A stretch of DNA of 38,659 bases from a virus. The notes below the pieces were generated by a model. It had not been told where the DNA came from, made no database searches, and saw only the letters and a list, made by a program, of their open reading frames with translations. The stretch is taken from IMG/VR virus record IMGVR_UViG_3300032224_000185, positions 1 through 38,659 of that record. One strand, written 5' to 3'. How positions within the stretch are numbered: position 1 is the stretch's first letter; every line of letters starts with the position of its first letter. This document shows, one piece after another, positions 3,555 through 33,171 of this stretch. The position numbers and the translations under genes are program-made.

Positions 3555-5822
3555 ATGGCAGGATTAAATTTATTTACAAATAACGCAGCTACCACACTAG
3601 CTACAGGTATTAATAGCTCTGTTACCTCATTAACTGTTGCATCAGCTACTGGTGGTTTATTTCCAAACCCTACAGCGGGTCAATACTTTTACTGTACTCT
3701 ATCTAATGCAGCAGGTACTACAATTGAAATTGTTAAAGTAACTGCTAGATCAACAGACACATTTACTATTGTTCGCGGGCAAGATAATACAACTGCTTCT
3801 GCTTTTATTGCAGGTGATAAAGTTGAACTTCGTTTAACAAATTCAGATCTTATTAACTTTCCACAATTAGACTCAACTAATACATTTGCATCAGCTCAAA
3901 CATTTAGTTCTGCTCCTATTTTAACTCCTTTAACTGGTTTATTATATGGTAACTCTTCAAGTGCTGTAACTGCTGCAACAGCAGCTCAAGTAGTATCAGT
4001 TATTGGTTCAACTGCTGTTACTAATGCTACTAATGCAGTTAACGTAACAGGTACTGTAGGTGTAGCTAATGGTGGTACAGGTTTAACTACTGCTACTGCT
4101 TACTCTTTATTAGCAGGTGGTACAACTTCAACAGGTGCTTTTCAATCTTTAGCTTCAGTAGGTACCACAGGACAAGTTTTAACATCTAATGGTGCAAGTG
4201 CTCTACCTACATGGCAAAATGCAGCAAGCGGTGCTGCATCTGGTGCAACAGACTATACATTTACATCTACAACATCTAACTTTACTTTAACATCTTCTTC
4301 TAATCAAGTGGTAAGGTTATTAGGTAATACAACTAATTTAAATGGAACTGGTACTGCTTCTATTACATTACCAGCTATGAATAGTAGTATGACTGCTGGT
4401 AACAATAGATTTGTATTTCAAAACTATTCTCCTTACAGCGTAGCATTAAAAGATAGCGGTGGCACAATTAGGCAATTTATTGGAACTCAATCATCAAATT
4501 CATATGAAACTCACGAAAATTCATTAACAATTAAAGATATTGCTACCGCTACTGGATTTTGGTATACAGCAAATAATTTTATTGTAAATGCTGTAGTTAA
4601 TACTCTTTCATCAGCATCAAGTATATTAACAACAGCTGGAGATTATGTTGGAACTTCTGATCTTATTCCATTAACAAGCACTACATTTGCTGTAGTTTGG
4701 ACAGAGTTAGGTCCTAGTGGAACTGCTACTTACCAATATGGTGCTGTTTATGCTCAACATTTTTCATTAAATACAACTACAAATGTTATCACAGTATCTA
4801 ATAAAGTAACCGTAGGCTCAAGAGTTACTACAAGATCTATGGGGTATAATTATATAGGTTATGATGTGGATCAAGCGGGACACGCTTTTGTTTTAATTAC
4901 AGGACAAAATAATGGCGGTGCATGTTGTTCAAACTGGTACTCTAATGGTGGTGGTTGGTTTGGTTTATCTTCATCAGGAGGAACGCTATACGCATCAGCT
5001 ATTACAGAAACTGGAGCACGTTCAGGGTCTGGTAACATTGAACCTAAACAACTTTATGTATCTTATTTAGGTAGTGGTAGTGCCTATGCTTTTGCTTTTA
5101 CATATAGTACATTGTCTGCAAATAATTATTCATATTATACGGGAGGAGCTACTGTTACAGGAACAACTGCAGCAACATTAACTAACTCAGCAAATAATGC
5201 AGCAACATCTTTGGGTAATATGGGTAGTGCTAATGCTGTCAGTTATGCTTCAAGGACAAGTTTAACAACATTTACTTATGGTGGTACACAACCCAATGGA
5301 GATGGATTTGTTATATATGGTAGATATGCATCTTATACTCCAGCATCAAATACATTTACACAAGGTGCAAGAACAGCGACAACTCGTTTAGCTATTGAAC
5401 AATCATTCTTAAGTTCTTATTCATCTTTTGCTCAAGGTGGATTTATGTATTGTTCAGGTAAAGTAATATTTGGTAAATACGCTTGGACAATTACAAATGC
5501 TGGAGCTGCTGGAGTAACATCCACACAAGCAACTACAGTAACTGCTAAAGGATTCTTAACTCCTAACTATAGCACAGTAACTATACCAACTAATGGGCTT
5601 TTTTCAGCTGCTAGAAATGGATATGTTAGTGGAACAACTATTACCTCAGGTTATTTTAATGTAGATACAACAGCAGCAGATTTTAATGTAAATGGATTAT
5701 ATACAAGTGGACAGATAGGATCTATACTATCTACATCTAATGCTATTAGTTATACATTGTGGGGTACCTCTGGATACTTTTTTAATGTTATTGCTATAGC
5801 AACTCCAATTACTGCAATTTAA
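3555..5822 (+). CDS. Large tail fibre / receptor-binding protein
   Basis: These 755 residues are Thr, Ser, Gly, Ala and Asn rich. The N-terminal ~110 residues (NNAATTLATGINSSVTSLTV, FTIVRGQDNTTASAF, GDKVELRLTNSDL) form a conserved attachment module common to phage fibres. The middle has the fibre signature VANGGTGLTTATAYSLLAGG and GQVLTSNGASALPTW. The long C-terminal part is beta-rich and has aromatic clusters, as expected for a trimeric receptor-binding tip that varies between strains. No hydrolase motif is visible. It probably sets host range. Confidence 0.85.
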   Translation: MAGLNLFTNNAATTLATGINSSVTSLTVASATGGLFPNPTAGQYFYCTLSNAAGTTIEIVKVTARSTDTFTIVRGQDNTTASAFIAGDKVELRLTNSDLINFPQLDSTNTFASAQTFSSAPILTPLTGLLYGNSSSAVTAATAAQVVSVIGSTAVTNATNAVNVTGTVGVANGGTGLTTATAYSLLAGGTTSTGAFQSLASVGTTGQVLTSNGASALPTWQNAASGAASGATDYTFTSTTSNFTLTSSSNQVVRLLGNTTNLNGTGTASITLPAMNSSMTAGNNRFVFQNYSPYSVALKDSGGTIRQFIGTQSSNSYETHENSLTIKDIATATGFWYTANNFIVNAVVNTLSSASSILTTAGDYVGTSDLIPLTSTTFAVVWTELGPSGTATYQYGAVYAQHFSLNTTTNVITVSNKVTVGSRVTTRSMGYNYIGYDVDQAGHAFVLITGQNNGGACCSNWYSNGGGWFGLSSSGGTLYASAITETGARSGSGNIEPKQLYVSYLGSGSAYAFAFTYSTLSANNYSYYTGGATVTGTTAATLTNSANNAATSLGNMGSANAVSYASRTSLTTFTYGGTQPNGDGFVIYGRYASYTPASNTFTQGARTATTRLAIEQSFLSSYSSFAQGGFMYCSGKVIFGKYAWTITNAGAAGVTSTQATTVTAKGFLTPNYSTVTIPTNGLFSAARNGYVSGTTITSGYFNVDTTAADFNVNGLYTSGQIGSILSTSNAISYTLWGTSGYFFNVIAIATPITAI

Positions 5823-5834
5823 TAAAGGATATAT

Positions 5835-6008
5835 ATGAAATATTTAATTGATAAAAACTATAATGTAATTACAACAGCTGATGATGAGTATGAGTTTATG
5901 ATACAAGCAACAGCAACTGATTTTCCAGGTTCTGTAGTTATGGATCATGTACCTAAAAAACCAATACCAACAGATCAGCCACAATCTACAGGCACACAAA
6001 CTCTTTGA
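5835..6008 (+). CDS. Small acidic phage protein, 57 aa
   Basis: ATG 5835 follows AAAGGA and lies 12 bases after the fibre stop. The product starts MKYLIDKNYNVITTADDEYE and ends in a Pro/Gln/Thr-rich tail. The stop TGA overlaps the TTG start of the cupin gene (TTGA), indicating coupling. Small proteins of this kind often follow fibre genes and may cap or assist the fibre. That is context only; I do not recognise the family. Confidence 0.6.
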   Translation: MKYLIDKNYNVITTADDEYEFMIQATATDFPGSVVMDHVPKKPIPTDQPQSTGTQTL

Positions 6009-6295
6009 TAGCTTTACCACCAAAACATAGTTTTACTTATGATGGGGCTACCTGTGCTATATTTCATGCAAACATTGGGGAGGGTTTACCAATGCATGAG
6101 CATATGTATAGTCATGCTACAGTTTGTTTTAATGGTAAAATAGCTATACGCAAAGATGGGAAAGAAATAATAGCAACAAAAGAAGATGGTGCTTTTAATT
6201 TATTAGCTGGTGAACCTCATGAGATAGAAGCCTTAGAAGATAATACAGTATTTATGAATGTATTTGCAACAAAGTATGAAAGTAAAAAATATTAA
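6005..6295 (+). CDS. Small cupin-fold protein
   Basis: Translation probably starts at TTG 6005, which overlaps the preceding stop. The next Met is inside the conserved core, so the TTG is needed. The 96 residues show the cupin pattern: GEGLPMHEHMYSHATVCFNG as motif 1 with clustered His, and LLAGEPHEIEA as motif 2. Cupins bind a metal through such His residues, but the substrate cannot be told from sequence. A second cupin is encoded at 36421-36921. A role in modifying or capping virion components is possible. Confidence 0.65.
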   Translation: MIALPPKHSFTYDGATCAIFHANIGEGLPMHEHMYSHATVCFNGKIAIRKDGKEIIATKEDGAFNLLAGEPHEIEALEDNTVFMNVFATKYESKKY

Positions 6296-6309
6296 CAAAG
6301 GAGAAAGTA

Positions 6310-6507
6310 ATGGAAGTTAAAGATTTAATTAAAGACAAGATAGCAATTCTTTTTACGTTAGACGAAGTTAATGCAGTACTTACACAACTAGGTAAATTAC
6401 CTTTTAATGAAGTATTCCAACTTATTAGTCTTATTCAAATGCAGGGTAAAGACCAAGCTGAGAAGATACTTGAAAAACAAAAAGAAGAAGAATCTAAAAA
6501 GGATTAA
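6310..6507 (+). CDS. Conserved small phage protein, 65 aa
   Basis: An AAAGGAG site lies just before the ATG. The segment FTLDEVNAVLTQLGKLPFNEVFQLISLIQMQ is a pattern I associate with short helical proteins in T7-like and marine podoviruses, near the lysis genes. It is followed by a highly charged, coiled tail (EKILEKQKEEESKKD). It has no signal peptide and no catalytic motif. The position just before the 3-TM holin-like gene is typical. The function is unknown. Confidence 0.65.
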   Translation: MEVKDLIKDKIAILFTLDEVNAVLTQLGKLPFNEVFQLISLIQMQGKDQAEKILEKQKEEESKKD

Positions 6508-19220: not shown

Positions 19221-19364
19221 TTATGTTAATGTAATTACTACTCTAAATATGAGAAGTTCTAATACTAAATAAGAACCATCGTCGTCTAACTCTGGTATAT
19301 ATTTAGTATCAACTAACTCAAAACCAAGTGATACACCGCATATAGGTTTAATTGATACTTCCAT
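19221..19364 (-). CDS. Small phage protein, 47 aa
   Basis: The ATG overlaps the stop of the ribonucleotide reductase gene by one base (TAATG), so it is probably translated by coupling. The product starts MEVSIKPICGVSLGFELVDT and has an acidic centre followed by a hydrophobic C-terminus (LVLELLIFRVVITLT). It lacks a recognisable family. The position just after the reductase may be chance or functional. Confidence 0.6.
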   Translation of the reverse strand: MEVSIKPICGVSLGFELVDTKYIPELDDDGSYLVLELLIFRVVITLT

Positions 19365-21241
19365 TATGCTATCTCACAACTTCCACCAGTACACGCTAGT
19401 GTCTGGGACCCTTCGGTATTATCATCCTTTTCAATAAGATCTTCCCAGTTAATATCACTAGGCATCTTGGATGCTAATTCTTTGTACTGCTCTTCTGTAA
19501 TATCTTCATATGGTGCTTGTTGATATGTATGATTTGAATGTGGTAAGAAGCTAATACCACTAACCTCATCAAAGTATTTCCATACCCATGCCCCTACTTC
19601 AGGCCATTCATTATCTGTTACTGTAATAGTTACAGAAGGTTTGTGTTCACACCAATGACGTTGATAGATTAACCATAAGTTAAGTTGTTCTATAGCAGTC
19701 ATATCATTACGAGTTATAGCACCCTTAGGGGCTTTTATCGGAAAGCTGAACACAGCTGTCGAGTCAGGGCGAAACACTTCGTCTTCCACTGGGAAACCTT
19801 TTTCCTTGAGGAACGAGTATACAGGATCCTTTTTATCAATACGTACCCTTCGTATGTAATGAGCATTGTGTCTAGCATGAATGCCACTAGCACTATCAAC
19901 CAACTGGGATACGGTACCTGAGGGTTTAACACAAGTGATAGAAGCAGAAGGAGGTATACCAAGTTCCTTAGAAAGTTGTTTGTTTGTCTCTCTCGCAGCA
20001 TCACGTAATTCCTCTAATAATAATGGATCAGGATTGCTAGTTACTTTACAATCCATGATACCTGTTAATGACACTCCTAGTAAACGTTCTTCTTCAGTAT
20101 TCTTTTTCCATTCTTCAGATAAGAATTGAAAGTCTATGAGTGTAGACTGTATAGTACCTAAGATTGTAGCTAATTTAACTTTTCTAAGTAAGGAATCTCT
20201 GGTATCTTTTTCCCGTACAACCACTTCCGTAAGATTGCAGAACTGTTTATCACGGAGGATAATTTCTGAACATGGATTGGTTCCGTAGCTGAGAGTTGGA
20301 TCTCGTCGTCCCCATCTTGCTGCTTGATTTTGAGAAGCAACTCTATTAAATACTCCTCGTTCACCTGATTTGGACTTAACCAAACTGACCCACTCTTCCA
20401 TGAAAGTTTCACTATCGGGTTTCTCAGTATACGCAACTGAATTGTTGGCAAGACCTCTGTACGGATAATCATTATACCATGCTCCTGTTTTAGCATCACG
20501 CATTCTTTTGTCTGTTAAATTACTTAAAGAGATAAGAGCTGATCTTCTTACACCCCCAACTACAACAATCTCACCAATCATACATAAGATGTCATGTACT
20601 TCTAAGCTATTAAGTTTTCTTCCTGCAGATCCTTTGCAAGTATCCACCGTGAACTTGAACAACTTTCGCAATGGGTCAGGCCCACTAGCTCTCCCTCCAA
20701 ATGTTTTAAGTCTTGCTCCAGCTGGTCTGACTTTGCTATAGTCAACTTTAGGGATGTCTCCTTCCCACAATGAGGACAGAAGCTTTTTAAATGCTTTAGC
20801 CCACCCAAGTTTTGAGTCTCCAACTGATATGACATCATCAACCTCCTTAAAAGTACTAGGTAGTGGGGGTAACTTATCAATCTCTTGACGTTCACATGAG
20901 AACCCTACACCAGTACCATTCATTAAAATGTAAAGAGCTTCAGAGAATGCTCTCTTGTTATTAATAGCAAGATAAGAACAGTTATAAGCTGAGATATTAT
21001 CTCTGTCACATGCTTCACCTGCGGTCATTAATAGACGCATAGATGGCATAACTTCTAGGTCTATAATAGATTGTTTTAAATCATCCCATGGTATAGACTT
21101 AGCAGTAGTTTTAATCTTTAAATAAGATACAAGTCTATCAACAGTTTCTTCCCAAGACTCTCGTCTTTGTTCAGCCTCAATGTATCTAGCGTATCGAGAC
21201 TTATGTATGAACTTACTGTAGTTCGTCAGTTTCGTAGTCAT
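19364..21241 (-). CDS. nrdJ: Class II (adenosylcobalamin-dependent) ribonucleotide reductase
   Basis: These 625 residues match the monomeric B12-dependent ribonucleoside-triphosphate reductase type. Visible blocks are NCSYLAI, MNGTGVGFS, RPAGARLKTFGGRASGP, GGVRRSAL, NPCSEIILRDKQFCNLTEVV (radical Cys region), PSGTVSQLVDSASGIHARH and the C-terminal redox pair in CTGGSCEIA. The enzyme makes deoxynucleotides for phage DNA synthesis and works with or without oxygen, but needs host cobalamin. It is somewhat shorter than the Lactobacillus enzyme (about 740). The start overlaps the end of the 61-residue gene upstream. Confidence 0.92.
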   Translation of the reverse strand: MTTKLTNYSKFIHKSRYARYIEAEQRRESWEETVDRLVSYLKIKTTAKSIPWDDLKQSIIDLEVMPSMRLLMTAGEACDRDNISAYNCSYLAINNKRAFSEALYILMNGTGVGFSCERQEIDKLPPLPSTFKEVDDVISVGDSKLGWAKAFKKLLSSLWEGDIPKVDYSKVRPAGARLKTFGGRASGPDPLRKLFKFTVDTCKGSAGRKLNSLEVHDILCMIGEIVVVGGVRRSALISLSNLTDKRMRDAKTGAWYNDYPYRGLANNSVAYTEKPDSETFMEEWVSLVKSKSGERGVFNRVASQNQAARWGRRDPTLSYGTNPCSEIILRDKQFCNLTEVVVREKDTRDSLLRKVKLATILGTIQSTLIDFQFLSEEWKKNTEEERLLGVSLTGIMDCKVTSNPDPLLLEELRDAARETNKQLSKELGIPPSASITCVKPSGTVSQLVDSASGIHARHNAHYIRRVRIDKKDPVYSFLKEKGFPVEDEVFRPDSTAVFSFPIKAPKGAITRNDMTAIEQLNLWLIYQRHWCEHKPSVTITVTDNEWPEVGAWVWKYFDEVSGISFLPHSNHTYQQAPYEDITEEQYKELASKMPSDINWEDLIEKDDNTEGSQTLACTGGSCEIA

Positions 21242-28105: not shown

Positions 28106-28336
28106 CTACAGACCACAAAATGCTTCTGTTAATTTCTTACTGTTGTATTTGTTTTCTTTATTGTAAACTTTTCTTTCATTTACATTCAGATACAAAGGCG
28201 TGAGCACAAAGTGATGCACGTCTTTGAGTCTGGTAACTTGTTGTAAATCTGCAGGAAGAAACGACCAAAGGTATTTAGCACGGAGTGCACCAGTAGTATC
28301 ATACTCTTCATACAGCCAAGCGTCAGGTTGTTTCAT
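28106..28336 (-). CDS. Small phage protein, DAWLYE start
   Basis: These 76 residues begin MKQPDAWLYEEYDTTGALRA and contain HHFVLTPLYLNV. The opening PDAWLYE and the later VTPLY-like segment are seen in many short phage and plasmid proteins of unknown function. It overlaps the primase stop by four bases (ATGA), and lies between primase and helicase, so a role at the fork is possible but not shown. Confidence 0.65.
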   Translation of the reverse strand: MKQPDAWLYEEYDTTGALRAKYLWSFLPADLQQVTRLKDVHHFVLTPLYLNVNERKVYNKENKYNSKKLTEAFCGL

Positions 28337-29025
28337 TGTTTATCCTTTATAATCAAGTCTATTTCTTGTGTGCTATATTCTTTAGGATCTTTATCTGTAA
28401 TAATAACATCAGAATCAATACCCTTCTGTTTTAAATTCCTAGCCATTTTAACGGCATCAATTGCCTTATCCCTATCCAACCATATCCAAACTTTTTTAAA
28501 GCGTTCTAGGATGGTTTCTGTAAGTTTTAGAGGCATACTTGAACCTAGTAGAGGACACCCTGTGTAATTATTGTTACTCTTGCTAACTTTAATTGCAGAT
28601 AAAATATCTTCCACTACAATTATTGTATCACTGTTACCGTAGAATAGCAAGGGTTTGTTTCCTTTAGACATATACTTAGGACCATCACCGAAGTTTCTAG
28701 CTTGGTAATAGTGTGGTAAATATACAAGCACTAAAGCTTTTTTTGACGGACACCAAGTAATGTGATAGGTATCACAATCCTTACTTGTTATCTCGTATTG
28801 CAATAGCCATTGCATTGGTTCTTTAGGAATGTCAAGTACTAAATCTAAATGTAAATCGTTAGGACATTCTTCGTCGATTGTCATCAATCGTCTGCGAACT
28901 CCTTCGATTGTGTTCTTAGACTTCCAGTACTTACATCCAAAACAAAACAAATGATCGTCATATTCTGCCAAGTTATCTTTGCTACCACAACTTGGACAAG
29001 GTATATGACCTATAAATTTACTCAT
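28333..29025 (-). CDS. DNA primase with zinc finger and TOPRIM domain
   Basis: These 230 residues have a zinc finger with Cys10, Cys13, Cys28 and Cys31 (CPSCGSKDNL, FCFGCKYW). The TOPRIM part has TIIVVEDILSAIKVS with the key Glu and WIWLDRDKAID with the DxD. It is shorter than the primase half of T7 gp4 but keeps all elements. It makes RNA primers for the separate helicase at 26853-28094. It is the first minus-strand gene after the plus-strand pqqA, so its transcript must read through that region or start close by. Confidence 0.88.
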   Translation of the reverse strand: MSKFIGHIPCPSCGSKDNLAEYDDHLFCFGCKYWKSKNTIEGVRRRLMTIDEECPNDLHLDLVLDIPKEPMQWLLQYEITSKDCDTYHITWCPSKKALVLVYLPHYYQARNFGDGPKYMSKGNKPLLFYGNSDTIIVVEDILSAIKVSKSNNNYTGCPLLGSSMPLKLTETILERFKKVWIWLDRDKAIDAVKMARNLKQKGIDSDVIITDKDPKEYSTQEIDLIIKDKQ

Positions 29026-29078
29026 GAATACCCTTAGATAAAGTTAAGTGTTACACGCATGATTGTTTTCATTCACTA

Positions 29079-29087
29079 TGTTATAAT
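29079..29087 (+). promoter_or_regulatory. Extended -10 promoter of pqqA
   Basis: TATAAT at 29082-29087 is preceded by TGT, giving the extended -10 form TGnTATAAT. No good -35 box is found at 16-18 bases, which is usual for extended -10 promoters. Transcription should begin near 29093-29095, directly at a perfect stem-loop, and run to pqqA about 43 bases downstream. It points against the surrounding operon. Confidence 0.75.
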
Positions 29088-29092
29088 AGTTG

Positions 29093-29112
29093 TATAGAAT
29101 GAAAATTCTATA
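29093..29112 (+). promoter_or_regulatory. Perfect 5' stem-loop in the pqqA leader
   Basis: TATAGAAT (29093-29100) and ATTCTATA (29105-29112) pair over eight bases around a GAAA loop (GNRA tetraloop in RNA). With the start predicted at about 29094, the transcript would carry this hairpin at its very 5' end, a layout known to slow RNase E decay of mRNAs such as ompA. The ribosome site AAAGGAA (29124-29130) remains free downstream. Confidence 0.7.
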
Positions 29113-29136
29113 TTAACTTTTATAAAGGAAAATATC

Positions 29137-29208
29137 ATGTGGACTAAACCAGCTGCTACAGAAATGCGTTTTGGCTTTGAAGTTACAATGTATGTAATGA
29201 ATAAATAA
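29137..29208 (+). CDS. pqqA: PqqA, PQQ precursor peptide
   Basis: This 23-residue peptide begins [12 protein letters not shown] and continues [11 protein letters not shown]. It fits PqqA: the MWxKPA start, the R(F/I)GFEVTMY core, and the Glu15 and Tyr19 pair (E-x3-Y) whose side chains PqqE joins to build pyrroloquinoline quinone. Length 23 is normal for PqqA. AAAGGAA lies upstream, with its own extended -10 promoter and a strong hairpin after the stop. It stands alone on the plus strand within the leftward operon; no pqqB-E genes are in the window, so host enzymes would do the maturation. Likely effect: more PQQ for methanol or other quinoprotein dehydrogenases during infection (inference). 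Confidence 0.88.
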
Positions 29209-29215
29209 TTACATA

Positions 29216-29259
29216 CCGTATGAATGCAGGCACCCGTGGGGATGCCCTGCGTTCTACGG
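29216..29259. terminator. Long hairpin after pqqA, enclosing a minus-strand stop
   Basis: CCGTA...TACGG form the base, GAA/TTC and GCAGG/CCTGC the middle, and CA-CCC/GGG-TG the top of a long stem. On the plus strand it follows pqqA by 7 bases and is followed by a U-rich tail (TTATATTTCTT), so it may end the pqqA transcript. On the minus strand it covers the stop of the 61-residue gene. It shares GAATGCAGGCACCC with the hairpin at 33201-33239. Confidence 0.65.
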
Positions 29260-29439
29260 ATTATATTTCTTAACAACCTCACCCGTGGACTTGTCAAGTT
29301 CATACTCAGGTAAGTCATTATTAGACATCTTCTGTTCTTTTATTTTCTTACCGAATATTTTATCCCAATTATCTTCACCTTCTTTAGATAATCTTTTATT
29401 GATAAGTCTATCACCCGTAATATTATTCCGCGATACCAT
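29254..29439 (-). CDS. Small phage protein, 61 aa
   Basis: ATG 29439 is chosen over the in-frame ATG at 29466 because AAGGAG sits eight bases before it. The product starts MVSRNNITGDRLINKRLSKE and has WDKIFGKKIK, a pattern (NxTGDRLxxK...YDxIFGKK) I associate with short conserved podovirus proteins. The start overlaps the previous gene by 17 bases, and the TAG stop falls within the long hairpin at 29216-29259. The function is unknown. Confidence 0.65.
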   Translation of the reverse strand: MVSRNNITGDRLINKRLSKEGEDNWDKIFGKKIKEQKMSNNDLPEYELDKSTGEVVKKYNP

Positions 29440-29644
29440 TGAAGAAGTCTCCTTGTAAGTCATCAAGTTCTATCTCGTCTTCGACATCGTTAGTTTCTCT
29501 TAAGTCTTCTCGTTCGAGAGACTCAATGTCATACTCAACATCATGAAAACAATGGTTACATAAGTCTACAAATTGTCCAGTCGTTGCCGACTTGCGTGTA
29601 GCCTCAAAATCATTTAATGCTTTGTTGCAAGCTAAACATCTCAC
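29423..29644 (-). CDS. Zinc-finger-like small phage protein
   Basis: These 73 residues start at GTG 29644, preceded by AAAGGGG. CLACNKALNDFEATRK and DLCNHCFHDVEYD provide two CxxC pairs for a zinc ribbon. The tail is very acidic (DDLQGDFFNGIAE). The pattern MRCLACNxxLxDFExTRKSxxTGxxxDLCNxC is common in T7-like and marine phages. It may bind nucleic acid or host RNA polymerase; no function is proven. Confidence 0.75.
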   Translation of the reverse strand: MRCLACNKALNDFEATRKSATTGQFVDLCNHCFHDVEYDIESLEREDLRETNDVEDEIELDDLQGDFFNGIAE

Positions 29645-29954: not shown

Positions 29955-30704
29955 TTATAGACTCCTGTAGTAATTATAAATTGCTTTTGAATAATTGTCA
30001 AGCGTAGTTCCTTCTAATCCTGGGGCAGTATTAACTTCGAATACAAAGAATTTATTATCAACGACTCTGTGTCCGATATCGACTGCACCGAAGTCTAGAC
30101 CAAGCAATTTTACAGCATTGATTGATGATAGTAGTAGCTCTTCGGGCGGGGCTATCTCTGCCCTGGCATACACCCATCCGTTTGCATGGTTACGAATGCC
30201 TGTGCCGCCTACGGCACCATTACGCTTACGCTTCATTTGAACATCGAGTACTTGTCCACGGAATACATGGACACGATACTCGTGTTTATGTTTAGTCTTG
30301 ACAGTGTATAGTGGTGCATTGATAAGTTCATTAGTAGTGTTAGCAATAACAATACCACGACCACTATGTCCTGTAGTTGTAGTGCGACAATAGATTGTAT
30401 CACCCATATCAATAAGATGTTTAGCAATATCTTTTGATATAGTATATTGAGGGATATCTTCAAAGCCTTTACATTCTAGTTCAGTAAATGTATGTAGTTT
30501 ATTACTAGCTAATGCGATGGCATGAGGATTGTTTAAGTCTTGTTCCATCCACCTGAAATGTGGTGGTGTACTATTGCCCCAGTTAACTATTACATCTTTG
30601 CGTCTTGCATTATACGATGGTGAAACCCTTAGAATACCAAGGGTTCTAGCCAATCGTTTAGCAGACACACTACCTAACTTGTAAGGGAATATCTTAAGAC
30701 TCAT
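29955..30704 (-). CDS. ATP-grasp ligase
   Basis: These 249 residues have ATP-grasp landmarks: YCRTTTTGHSGRGIVIA as the nucleotide-binding loop, EYRVHVFRGQVLDVQMKRKR as the strand pair with basic residues, and FEVNTAPGLEGTT with the metal-binding E and N near the end. Enzymes of this fold join a carboxylate to an amine using ATP (RimK, D-Ala-D-Ala ligase, peptide ligases). The start overlaps the amidotransferase stop (ATGA) and an amidoligase precedes it, so the three likely act together in making or attaching a peptide-like group. Confidence 0.82.
   Translation of the reverse strand: MSLKIFPYKLGSVSAKRLARTLGILRVSPSYNARRKDVIVNWGNSTPPHFRWMEQDLNNPHAIALASNKLHTFTELECKGFEDIPQYTISKDIAKHLIDMGDTIYCRTTTTGHSGRGIVIANTTNELINAPLYTVKTKHKHEYRVHVFRGQVLDVQMKRKRNGAVGGTGIRNHANGWVYARAEIAPPEELLLSSINAVKLLGLDFGAVDIGHRVVDNKFFVFEVNTAPGLEGTTLDNYSKAIYNYYRSL
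29973..30001 (-). promoter_or_regulatory. Consensus sigma70 promoter inside the ATP-grasp gene
   Basis: On the minus strand TTGACA (30001-29996), exactly 17 bases and TATAAT (29978-29973) form a perfect consensus promoter. It lies in the last codons of the ATP-grasp gene. The start would be near 29966, at the AGGAG that serves the 101-residue gene. It should drive the 29254-29952 genes and perhaps the replication genes beyond. Confidence 0.85.
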
Positions 30705-31618
30705 TTAGATTTACCTTTCAATAAAGATGGTGATGCATATTGTTGATATGCAGGGATACCTACTGGATCAATAGAGTCATCTTCAAACTCATCTATAAAA
30801 GATAAAGAATGATAAGGAACATTATAAAGAAAAGAACTTTTACCATTGTAACCATCATGCATTAAGTCACATGTAAAATCTTTATTAACTGCAACTATCT
30901 CACATAGTTCACCAGTCTCATACACTGTAAGAGTACCAGGGTCAGCTACATCTTCTAGCAATTCTACCATTGCACCTATTGCTACTACTTTAGGTTTAGG
31001 TTTAGTAATAGCTACAGGTTTACGCCAGTTGCCATAGTTGTATGTATCATTAAGCCATGATGTTGTAACTGGTGGGACATAAGGTTTGTAACTGTTGTTA
31101 CTATACCATATGCCATCATCCCATTCACCCTTGTGTTCATTCATAATTTTATGGTTACCATGTCTATCTAAGAAGATAAGCTTGCTATAACCAATACGAG
31201 TTTCAAGAAGGTTAATCATAGGATCTTGGAATAAAGCTAAGTTACCCCATTTGTTTACTAACGGTTGAAGTATTTGTTCATTGAAGTGGATAGTGTCAGA
31301 CAAAGTCTTATCACCATCAAGCCCATTAATAATACCGTTGTGCACAAAAGCCAGACTGCTATTGACAGCGAATGGGTGACAGTTTGTTTTATTAATTTCA
31401 CCATGAGTTTTAATCCTAAAATGAATAACAACTTTTTTATCTTGATGTTTCTTGTATGCATTGTAAAAGGAATCAAAGCTAAAGAAACCTTTTTCAATAT
31501 TTAATTGTTTGTTATCAGCAAACATAAAGCCTGCACCATCTGGGTTAGATGAATAACATTCTTGTAATGTTGCTTTACTGATAATCTTTTCTTCTGGTTT
31601 ATAGATTGCAATACACAT
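30701..31618 (-). CDS. Class II glutamine amidotransferase-like protein
   Basis: These 305 residues start MCIAIYKPEEK, with Cys2 as the N-terminal nucleophile after Met removal. SNPDGAGFMFAD, VVIHFRIKTHGEINKTNCHP and LAFVHNGIING are the landmarks of class II (Ntn) amidotransferases such as YafJ. The last ~100 residues are a separate small domain. It may supply ammonia, or act as an amidase on a gamma-glutamyl bond. The gene overlaps the amidoligase by one base and the ATP-grasp gene by four, strong evidence for one functional unit. Confidence 0.82.
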   Translation of the reverse strand: MCIAIYKPEEKIISKATLQECYSSNPDGAGFMFADNKQLNIEKGFFSFDSFYNAYKKHQDKKVVIHFRIKTHGEINKTNCHPFAVNSSLAFVHNGIINGLDGDKTLSDTIHFNEQILQPLVNKWGNLALFQDPMINLLETRIGYSKLIFLDRHGNHKIMNEHKGEWDDGIWYSNNSYKPYVPPVTTSWLNDTYNYGNWRKPVAITKPKPKVVAIGAMVELLEDVADPGTLTVYETGELCEIVAVNKDFTCDLMHDGYNGKSSFLYNVPYHSLSFIDEFEDDSIDPVGIPAYQQYASPSLLKGKSK

Positions 31619-33171
31619 TATACAAACTCCTTTAAATGATAACTAAGTTCGGGAAACATACGCTTACGATTAGATAACCAACCCATGAATGCTTCATAAT
31701 GAGTTTGTTTCTTGAGGGATTCATTAGACTGAGCAGGCATACAATAGTCTACTAACGCTTGAACGAATTGCAATCTCATTGCAAATTCTTTATAGTTCAT
31801 TGGAGTAGCAAACAACCTAACCTCGACAGTGTTACTATTGTTTAGATTAAGTGCATTGTATCTATCGCCACCGTTCTTATTACGCCATGCATAAGTAACA
31901 GTACGATCACCACTTATACGAGCATATTGATTATCTATACGACCTGCAATATGATGAATGAATTGTTTGTTATCTAAACGATTAAGAAATTCAGTCATCT
32001 TGCCAAGAGTCAACTGGCTCAAGGGTTTCCGACTGATATGAACATGCATACCTACATTCTTTTCTGTCTTAAGATCAGGTGGTATGTTGTCATAGAATTT
32101 CTTAAAGATATCTAGATGTATATCTAATGTAGCTGGACATGTAACAATTTCAAAGCCGTTACGAATAGAACCATCAGACTTCATAAGTGCATGACCATGC
32201 ATTAGTTTACCTACTGCAAGTTGTGCACGATTACGATTGTTAGTTTCATATTCTAATTCACAGCCAAGGTAAACAGTATTAGGTCGTACCCTAGTAGCTT
32301 TAAACTTGAGCATGCTTTCTACTCGTGTTGAATAGTTATGTATTTTAAATGTGGCATCAAGACAATGATGACACACACCATCAATCATAAGTTCTGTAAC
32401 AGATTCATTACCACATGAAGAACATGTAGCAATATCTACTTCATTACGATTATATATCTCACCACCATGAAAGAATTGCTCAGGTTTGAGCCATATGTCA
32501 TGTCGTTCATTGAATGTATAACCATACAACCTTGGATCAGTAGATTTATGTATCTCAGTCCAGTTAGTTGAACCAAGTCTCATGCGTCGTTGACTGCCAT
32601 CAACATGATATTCAGTAGTTAAGAAGTCTTGATAGTATGCATAAGTTGGTATGTCTTTATCAACAAGATAGTCTTGAATAGTTATGTCACTTATAGTTGA
32701 CTCTGCTATTCTTATTGCTTCTTGTAACATAAGGTTAGTTACCCAGCTAGTACGCATAGCTTGCGAGCGTAGTCGTCTACGCAGTGCACCCCAGAAGCCT
32801 TTCTTTAGTGTACCATTTTGATTATAAAACACAGGTGCATTAGCTTTATAATATAACGCATCAATAATAGTTGATGCATTGATTCTATAACTTGGACTTG
32901 TTACAAGGTTTGTTTCATGAGCAGCTTCACGATAGAAATTATATACACTTAATCGTCTGCTGCCATTGCCTTCGTCATTGGTATAGAATTGTAATACTCT
33001 TGTATCTTTGTACCAAAGAGTTGACAATGTAAAGGTCTTACGAACAGTTGCCTGTTCTTGATAGTCCCATTGATTGTCTTCTTTAGTCCAGTAGGTTTGT
33101 CGTATGTCTGGATGTAACCATCCGAACATATTAAACCTGTTATTAAACTCACTAAAACTATATGGTTTCAT
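31618..33171 (-). CDS. Amidoligase (COOH-NH2 ligase) with zinc ribbon
   Basis: This encodes 517 residues. Residues ~250-270 form a zinc ribbon (CSSCGNES, GVCHHC). The amidoligase domain follows: GCELEYET (303-310), KSDGSI (331-336), FEIVTCP (340-346), GMHVHIS (374-380), RYNALNL (437-443) and TVEVRLF (448-454), matching the glutamine-synthetase-like amidoligase family. The N-terminal 240 residues have no known domain. Members are predicted to form amide bonds in peptides or protein tags. It heads a three-gene overlap cluster with an amidotransferase and an ATP-grasp enzyme. AAAGGAA precedes the start. Confidence 0.82.
   Translation of the reverse strand: MKPYSFSEFNNRFNMFGWLHPDIRQTYWTKEDNQWDYQEQATVRKTFTLSTLWYKDTRVLQFYTNDEGNGSRRLSVYNFYREAAHETNLVTSPSYRINASTIIDALYYKANAPVFYNQNGTLKKGFWGALRRRLRSQAMRTSWVTNLMLQEAIRIAESTISDITIQDYLVDKDIPTYAYYQDFLTTEYHVDGSQRRMRLGSTNWTEIHKSTDPRLYGYTFNERHDIWLKPEQFFHGGEIYNRNEVDIATCSSCGNESVTELMIDGVCHHCLDATFKIHNYSTRVESMLKFKATRVRPNTVYLGCELEYETNNRNRAQLAVGKLMHGHALMKSDGSIRNGFEIVTCPATLDIHLDIFKKFYDNIPPDLKTEKNVGMHVHISRKPLSQLTLGKMTEFLNRLDNKQFIHHIAGRIDNQYARISGDRTVTYAWRNKNGGDRYNALNLNNSNTVEVRLFATPMNYKEFAMRLQFVQALVDYCMPAQSNESLKKQTHYEAFMGWLSNRKRMFPELSYHLKEFV

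Follow-up and report, generated by a model that had tools for sequence, protein, structure and literature searches.

The pqqA gene and its flanking signals

The window, a 38,659-base IMG/VR virus record analysed over its full length, contains a plus-strand ORF of 23 codons plus a stop that translates to a PqqA peptide (Table 1). The peptide matches both the Pfam PqqA family PF08042 (42.4 bits against a cut-off of 21.1, E = 6e-11, model positions 1–19 of 19) and the NCBI PqqA equivalog TIGR02107 (40.4 bits against a cut-off of 20, model positions 1–21 of 21), each above the curated threshold, as the first-pass annotation of this DNA had anticipated. Translation also bears out the features it had read from the letters, namely the MWTKPA start, the GFEVTMY core and the Glu15/Tyr19 pair (Glu-x3-Tyr) that PqqE cross-links. 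The window holds a single match to a loose PqqA motif, against none in 300 codon-block shuffles, PHROGs holds no family for the gene, and Rfam and tRNA scans of the window found nothing. The ORF is short and independent with its own ribosome site, and its 23 aa fall within the PqqA range of about 22–30 aa. It is not linked to pqqBCDE and the phage has no PqqE, which is not disqualifying because Methylophilaceae leave most of their pqqA copies unlinked. Judged from its sequence, the ORF is a genuine pqqA, the gene for the PQQ precursor peptide.

Table 1. Features at and around the viral pqqA (positions in the window)
Feature	Positions	Strand	Basis
Upstream divergent neighbour, DNA primase	28333–29025	−	phrog_47, E 7e-20
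Candidate extended −10 promoter element TGTTATAAT for pqqA	29079–29087	+	Consensus match only
Shine-Dalgarno AAGGA, ATG 7 nt downstream	29125–29129	+	Sequence
pqqA, 23 codons plus stop, PQQ precursor	29137–29208	+	PF08042, TIGR02107, identical peptide in 10/10 close relatives
Hairpin just 3' of the pqqA stop, likely terminator toward the convergent gene	29216–29259	+	Predicted fold
Downstream convergent neighbour, hypothetical protein	29254–29466	−	ORF only

Both neighbours of this solitary gene are encoded on the other strand, and the region around it holds primase, helicase, polymerase and virion genes; a Pfam search of the downstream protein gave no match. A Shine-Dalgarno-like 4-mer precedes pqqA in every viral cassette tested, compared with 16% of shuffles. 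TATAAT is retained in most of 17 aligned relatives, with variable flanking sequence, and a generic promoter scan did not report the candidate element of the window. A perfect TATAAT lies upstream in 51% of viral cassettes, 19% of shuffled sequences and <1% of host cassettes, percentages that are descriptive since related sequences are not independent. Upstream of host pqqA, perfect TATAAT occurs at 0.8% compared with 6.5% in shuffles, a hint that hosts use a different, probably regulated, type of pqqA promoter.

The hairpin after the stop (−26.9 kcal/mol, z −4.0) overlaps the last 6 nt of the downstream opposite-strand ORF, and hairpins in this position are usual in phage copies. Its stem is conserved in 10 relatives, with no compensatory changes across them, and a terminator scan that needs a U run did not call it, there being no long or strong U run. 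It is probably a transcription terminator, possibly acting in both directions, but with no U-rich terminator and no compensatory changes, termination remains a proposal only.

Distribution and conservation in phages and hosts

A tblastn search of 50,697 phage records with the peptide matched nine Methylophilales phage records (Venkman, P19250A, MEP301, MEP401, MEP402, and four Melnitz), which are all the Methylophilales phage records found in GenBank, a set that leaves out MEP431–434, phiMB624-A, HIM624-A, Venkman EXVC038S, MG-MtP1, and RSA-MfP1 listed in NCBI taxonomy. One uncultured phage, MW202481, matched as well, and a different PqqA used as query returned an identical record set. The pqqA-bearing Methylophilales phage genomes are unrelated and range from 35 to 142 kb; each complete phage checked encodes exactly one PqqA and no PqqE. 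The expectation that so short a gene would escape gene callers held, as pqqA is correctly annotated in none of the GenBank phage records: in five the position is blank, and MW202481 and Melnitz-1 carry a hypothetical ORF on the other strand.

The hypothetical proteins annotated opposite pqqA (MW202481.1, 2067–2195; MZ577095.1, 74848–74943) are probable wrong-strand calls arising from a length cut-off. Two "Acinetobacter phage" matches were not counted as phage, as they carry ppk and pqqBCDE alongside pqqA and resemble a bacterial chromosome fragment. In CAKLQF020000010.1 ("Acinetobacter phage MD-2021a"), ppk, pqqA, pqqB, pqqC, pqqD, and pqqE follow in chromosomal order, and the record is most likely a mislabelled bacterial contig.

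We searched IMG/VR by two degenerate DNA pattern scans (at least 120 matches each), which recovered at least 157 distinct pqqA loci; pooling all sources gave at least 204 de-duplicated viral cassettes in 24 gene-content clusters. Since the core residues are built into the first pattern, a second one, specifying the N-terminal half alone, served to check whether copies are intact. Among the matches listed, the second half was intact in 120 of 120 viral copies selected in this way, with Ile replacing Val16 in four, and the frame damage that the first-pass annotation had named as a ground for refutation was absent. E15 and Y19 are invariant in 111 of 111 tabulated viral ORFs, partly by search design.

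Relatives of the window phage were retrieved through the neighbouring primase and the ATP-grasp protein, that is, without using pqqA. All 10 relatives with 92–97% primase identity carry an identical PqqA peptide at the same locus, and together with the window they comprise 6 distinct DNA sequences with pS 0.24 and pN 0. At 52–62% primase identity, pqqA is absent from the window site and lies elsewhere in the genome where longer contigs exist. Every one of the 11 contigs of ≥30 kb that are related to the window phage has it, sometimes at another locus; the search for this ORF in related phages, which the first-pass annotation had proposed as a check, thus came out in favour both in GenBank and among long relatives. 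It is absent from distant relatives with ≤36% primase identity, including three contigs of ≥30 kb at 30–34%, and from the GenBank phages MW202796 and MW202697, relatives in replication genes. That presence is kept while position shifts argues for a function of the product, not of the place.

Across 84,980 bacterial and archaeal species, the same pattern matches almost only Methylophilaceae, which together with the phage matches upholds the earlier suggestion that the gene points to the host group. Six host genomes hold 1–12 pqqA copies each, and a single pqqE exceeded the cut-off in each of four host genomes tested, consistent with a published description of 3–12 pqqA per single pqqBCDE in Methylophilaceae, where stand-alone extra copies are normal (PMC4109929).

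The window peptide is identical to a host Methylophilaceae PqqA, being the second commonest host form among collected copies; phage copies differ in their flanks, in lacking linked pqqBCDE and, for about half of them, in having a consensus −10. Viral ORFs average 92% identity to the best host ORF, whereas the flanks, at 31% and 28%, are at chance level, indicating that the ORF alone was kept. AGA encodes Arg11 in 31 of 111 distinct phage ORFs compared with 1 of 112 host ORFs, and TAG stops are commoner in phage copies. In a 72-nt tree, which carries little signal and was used solely for this count, phage/host labels change 41 times compared with 81 ± 4 for shuffled labels, suggesting a separate history for the phage copies, punctuated by repeated exchange. 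Among seven divergent phages pN/pS is 0.15, with variable sites mostly at codon position 3; it is 0.12–0.15 overall and 0 in the window's clade.

One host contig (Methylophilales bacterium LSUCC0135 contig 15, 885–6540) has two near-identical direct pqqA copies flanking ∼5.6 kb that encode a tyrosine recombinase (5424–6335) adjoining one of the copies, a HigA-like antitoxin and a Fic-like protein. The segment may be an integrative element that makes use of pqqA or duplicates it, and it could explain part of the host pqqA multiplicity.

A probable substrate-only auxiliary metabolic gene

The gene is phage-encoded, host-like and outside virion and replication functions, and the low pN/pS together with the undamaged copies indicates maintenance by selection. 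We therefore favour, at a probability of roughly 80%, the reading that it is a genuine phage pqqA acting as a substrate-only auxiliary metabolic gene (AMG), acquired from the host, under purifying selection, separately transcribed, and feeding host PQQ synthesis for methanol dehydrogenase. According to this model, phages would have acquired pqqA from Methylophilaceae hosts and held it as a stand-alone cassette, transcribed in infection from its own sigma-70-type promoter, in the window antisense to the replication operon around it. Once translated, the 23-residue peptide would be bound by host PqqD and modified by host PqqE, which would cross-link Glu15 and Tyr19, and host proteases, PqqB, and PqqC would complete PQQ. 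The cofactor would then load periplasmic methanol dehydrogenase (XoxF/MxaF), so that electrons and formaldehyde keep flowing during phage replication, with an effect on PQQ and on phage yield. The maturation steps follow established PQQ biochemistry, reviewed in work that PMC9851590 cites. Because one PqqA is consumed per PQQ and the enzymes are catalytic, a phage would need to bring the substrate only, and the strategy would repeat the host habit of many pqqA per single pqqBCDE set.

Some considerations temper this reading. With several pqqA copies already in the hosts, it is not evident what the phage would gain, and a lytic cycle may be adequately served by the PQQ that existing dehydrogenase already holds. 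Overexpression of pqq genes in a methylotroph raised PQQ only modestly (PMC9851590), so substrate may not be limiting. The lack of pqqA in MW202796, MW202697 and the distant relatives likewise counts against the reading.

The peptide or its RNA might instead have a role other than PQQ supply: the peptide could, for example, compete for PqqD/PqqE and so slow PQQ production, or the transcript could act on the replication operon as a regulatory or antisense RNA. This would suit the location of pqqA in the window phage and in many of its relatives, where it sits antisense amid the genes of an operon running the other way. We regard such a role as unlikely. An inhibitor could lose Glu15 or Tyr19, yet every residue that a competent substrate needs is retained (E15, Y19, W2, P5, and GFEVT). 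Antisense action is not what the cassettes share, since pqqA is found in co-directional and convergent arrangements too, and selection acts on the peptide.

Close identity to host DNA could alternatively mark an attachment site, the phage integrating into host pqqA and restoring the gene much as at tRNA att sites. Exact sharing of 50–88 nt with a host copy in 61 of 204 viral copies agrees with this idea, as does the recombinase beside one of the two direct pqqA copies in the LSUCC0135 contig. However, a tblastn search with host integrases found no integrase-like gene in 248 viral loci, and the longest exact match between the window and any host copy covers 48 nt within the ORF, where silent changes interrupt it. 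Conservation tracks codons rather than DNA, with many synonymous differences around a constant peptide, and phage copies appear to have their own promoters and are often antisense inside operons. Integration at pqqA is thus less probable still.

It is very improbable that the ORF is a non-functional piece of a host gene captured recently, or that the assembly contains host DNA here. The gene is short and its DNA is 92% like host copies, as such an origin would predict, but pqqA is found in complete genomes of cultured phages, ten close relatives retain it at the same locus with silent changes only, no broken copy was seen among the 120 listed matches, and the count of tree label changes gives phage copies a history of their own. 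We give almost no credence to the opposite-strand ORF at 29076–29318 (80 aa) as the real gene and pqqA as its shadow. A reverse ORF of this kind is annotated in GenBank for MW202481 and Melnitz, and the coincidence of third codon positions keeps the frame open in relatives, but the curated PqqA matches, the identity to host pqqA, the ribosome site before every sense ATG in the viral cassettes and the end of conservation at the sense start and stop all contradict it.

Beyond the AMG assignment in the window, we lean, with less assurance, towards pqqA being a near-universal and overlooked auxiliary gene of Methylophilales phages, present in several lineages in one copy each, repeatedly gained or moved, equipped with phage-type promoters and driving host PQQ synthesis through the peptide substrate alone. 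The sequences suggest that these viruses may keep host methanol oxidation supplied during infection.

Earlier reports and implications

Phage PqqA is itself already known; the novelty lies in how common the gene is and how often it has been overlooked. Coutinho et al. (2020) described PqqA and methanol dehydrogenase in Lake Baikal methylotroph viruses (PMC7678222). Their VP_266, like the window phage, encodes PqqA, was predicted to be a Methylophilaceae virus, and was proposed to support methanol oxidation. It is, however, a single T4-like virus population that also encodes methanol dehydrogenase, whereas the window phage belongs to a small-genome lineage with replication genes common to MEP401/402 and without PqqE, and pqqA alone recurs here across many lineages. 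Viral pqqA, pqqD, and pqqE also appear, in a different context, in a 2026 reservoir survey (PMC13188868). The publications describing MEP301, MEP401/402, and Melnitz say nothing of pqqA, though these phages carry it, and our literature search, with subscription journals outside its coverage, found no report of general pqqA occurrence in phages.

Cyanophage psbA and similar AMGs are host genes for turned-over or consumed products that are carried by several phage families and sustain host energy metabolism in infection. Phage pqqA resembles psbA as a host gene with a consumed product kept by phages, and differs in that this product is a precursor peptide rather than an enzyme or reaction-centre protein, and in that the gene is shorter than gene callers usually accept.

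If our reading is right, a 23-codon gene invisible to standard callers would rank among the metabolic genes that methylotroph viruses retain most consistently, with a role comparable to that of psbA in cyanophages, and viral infection would be tied to methanol and lanthanide-dependent C1 cycling in the ocean and lakes. It would then also provide a simple sequence marker for Methylophilaceae viruses, and gene-caller-based AMG surveys would be missing precursor-peptide genes. Phage–host pairs already exist in Venkman or Melnitz on H5P1 and in MEP401/402 on FZCC0133.

Elsewhere in the window, three adjacent genes at 29955–33171 (−) encode an ATP-grasp protein like ribosomal S6 glutaminyl transferase (phrog_2599), a class II glutamine amidotransferase-like protein and an Amidoligase_2-like protein; amidoligase and GATase genes similar to those of this cluster have been reported in MEP401/402-type OM43 phages. 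A ribonucleotide reductase (phrog_367) at 19364–21241 (−) shows weak matches to B12-dependent class II domains.
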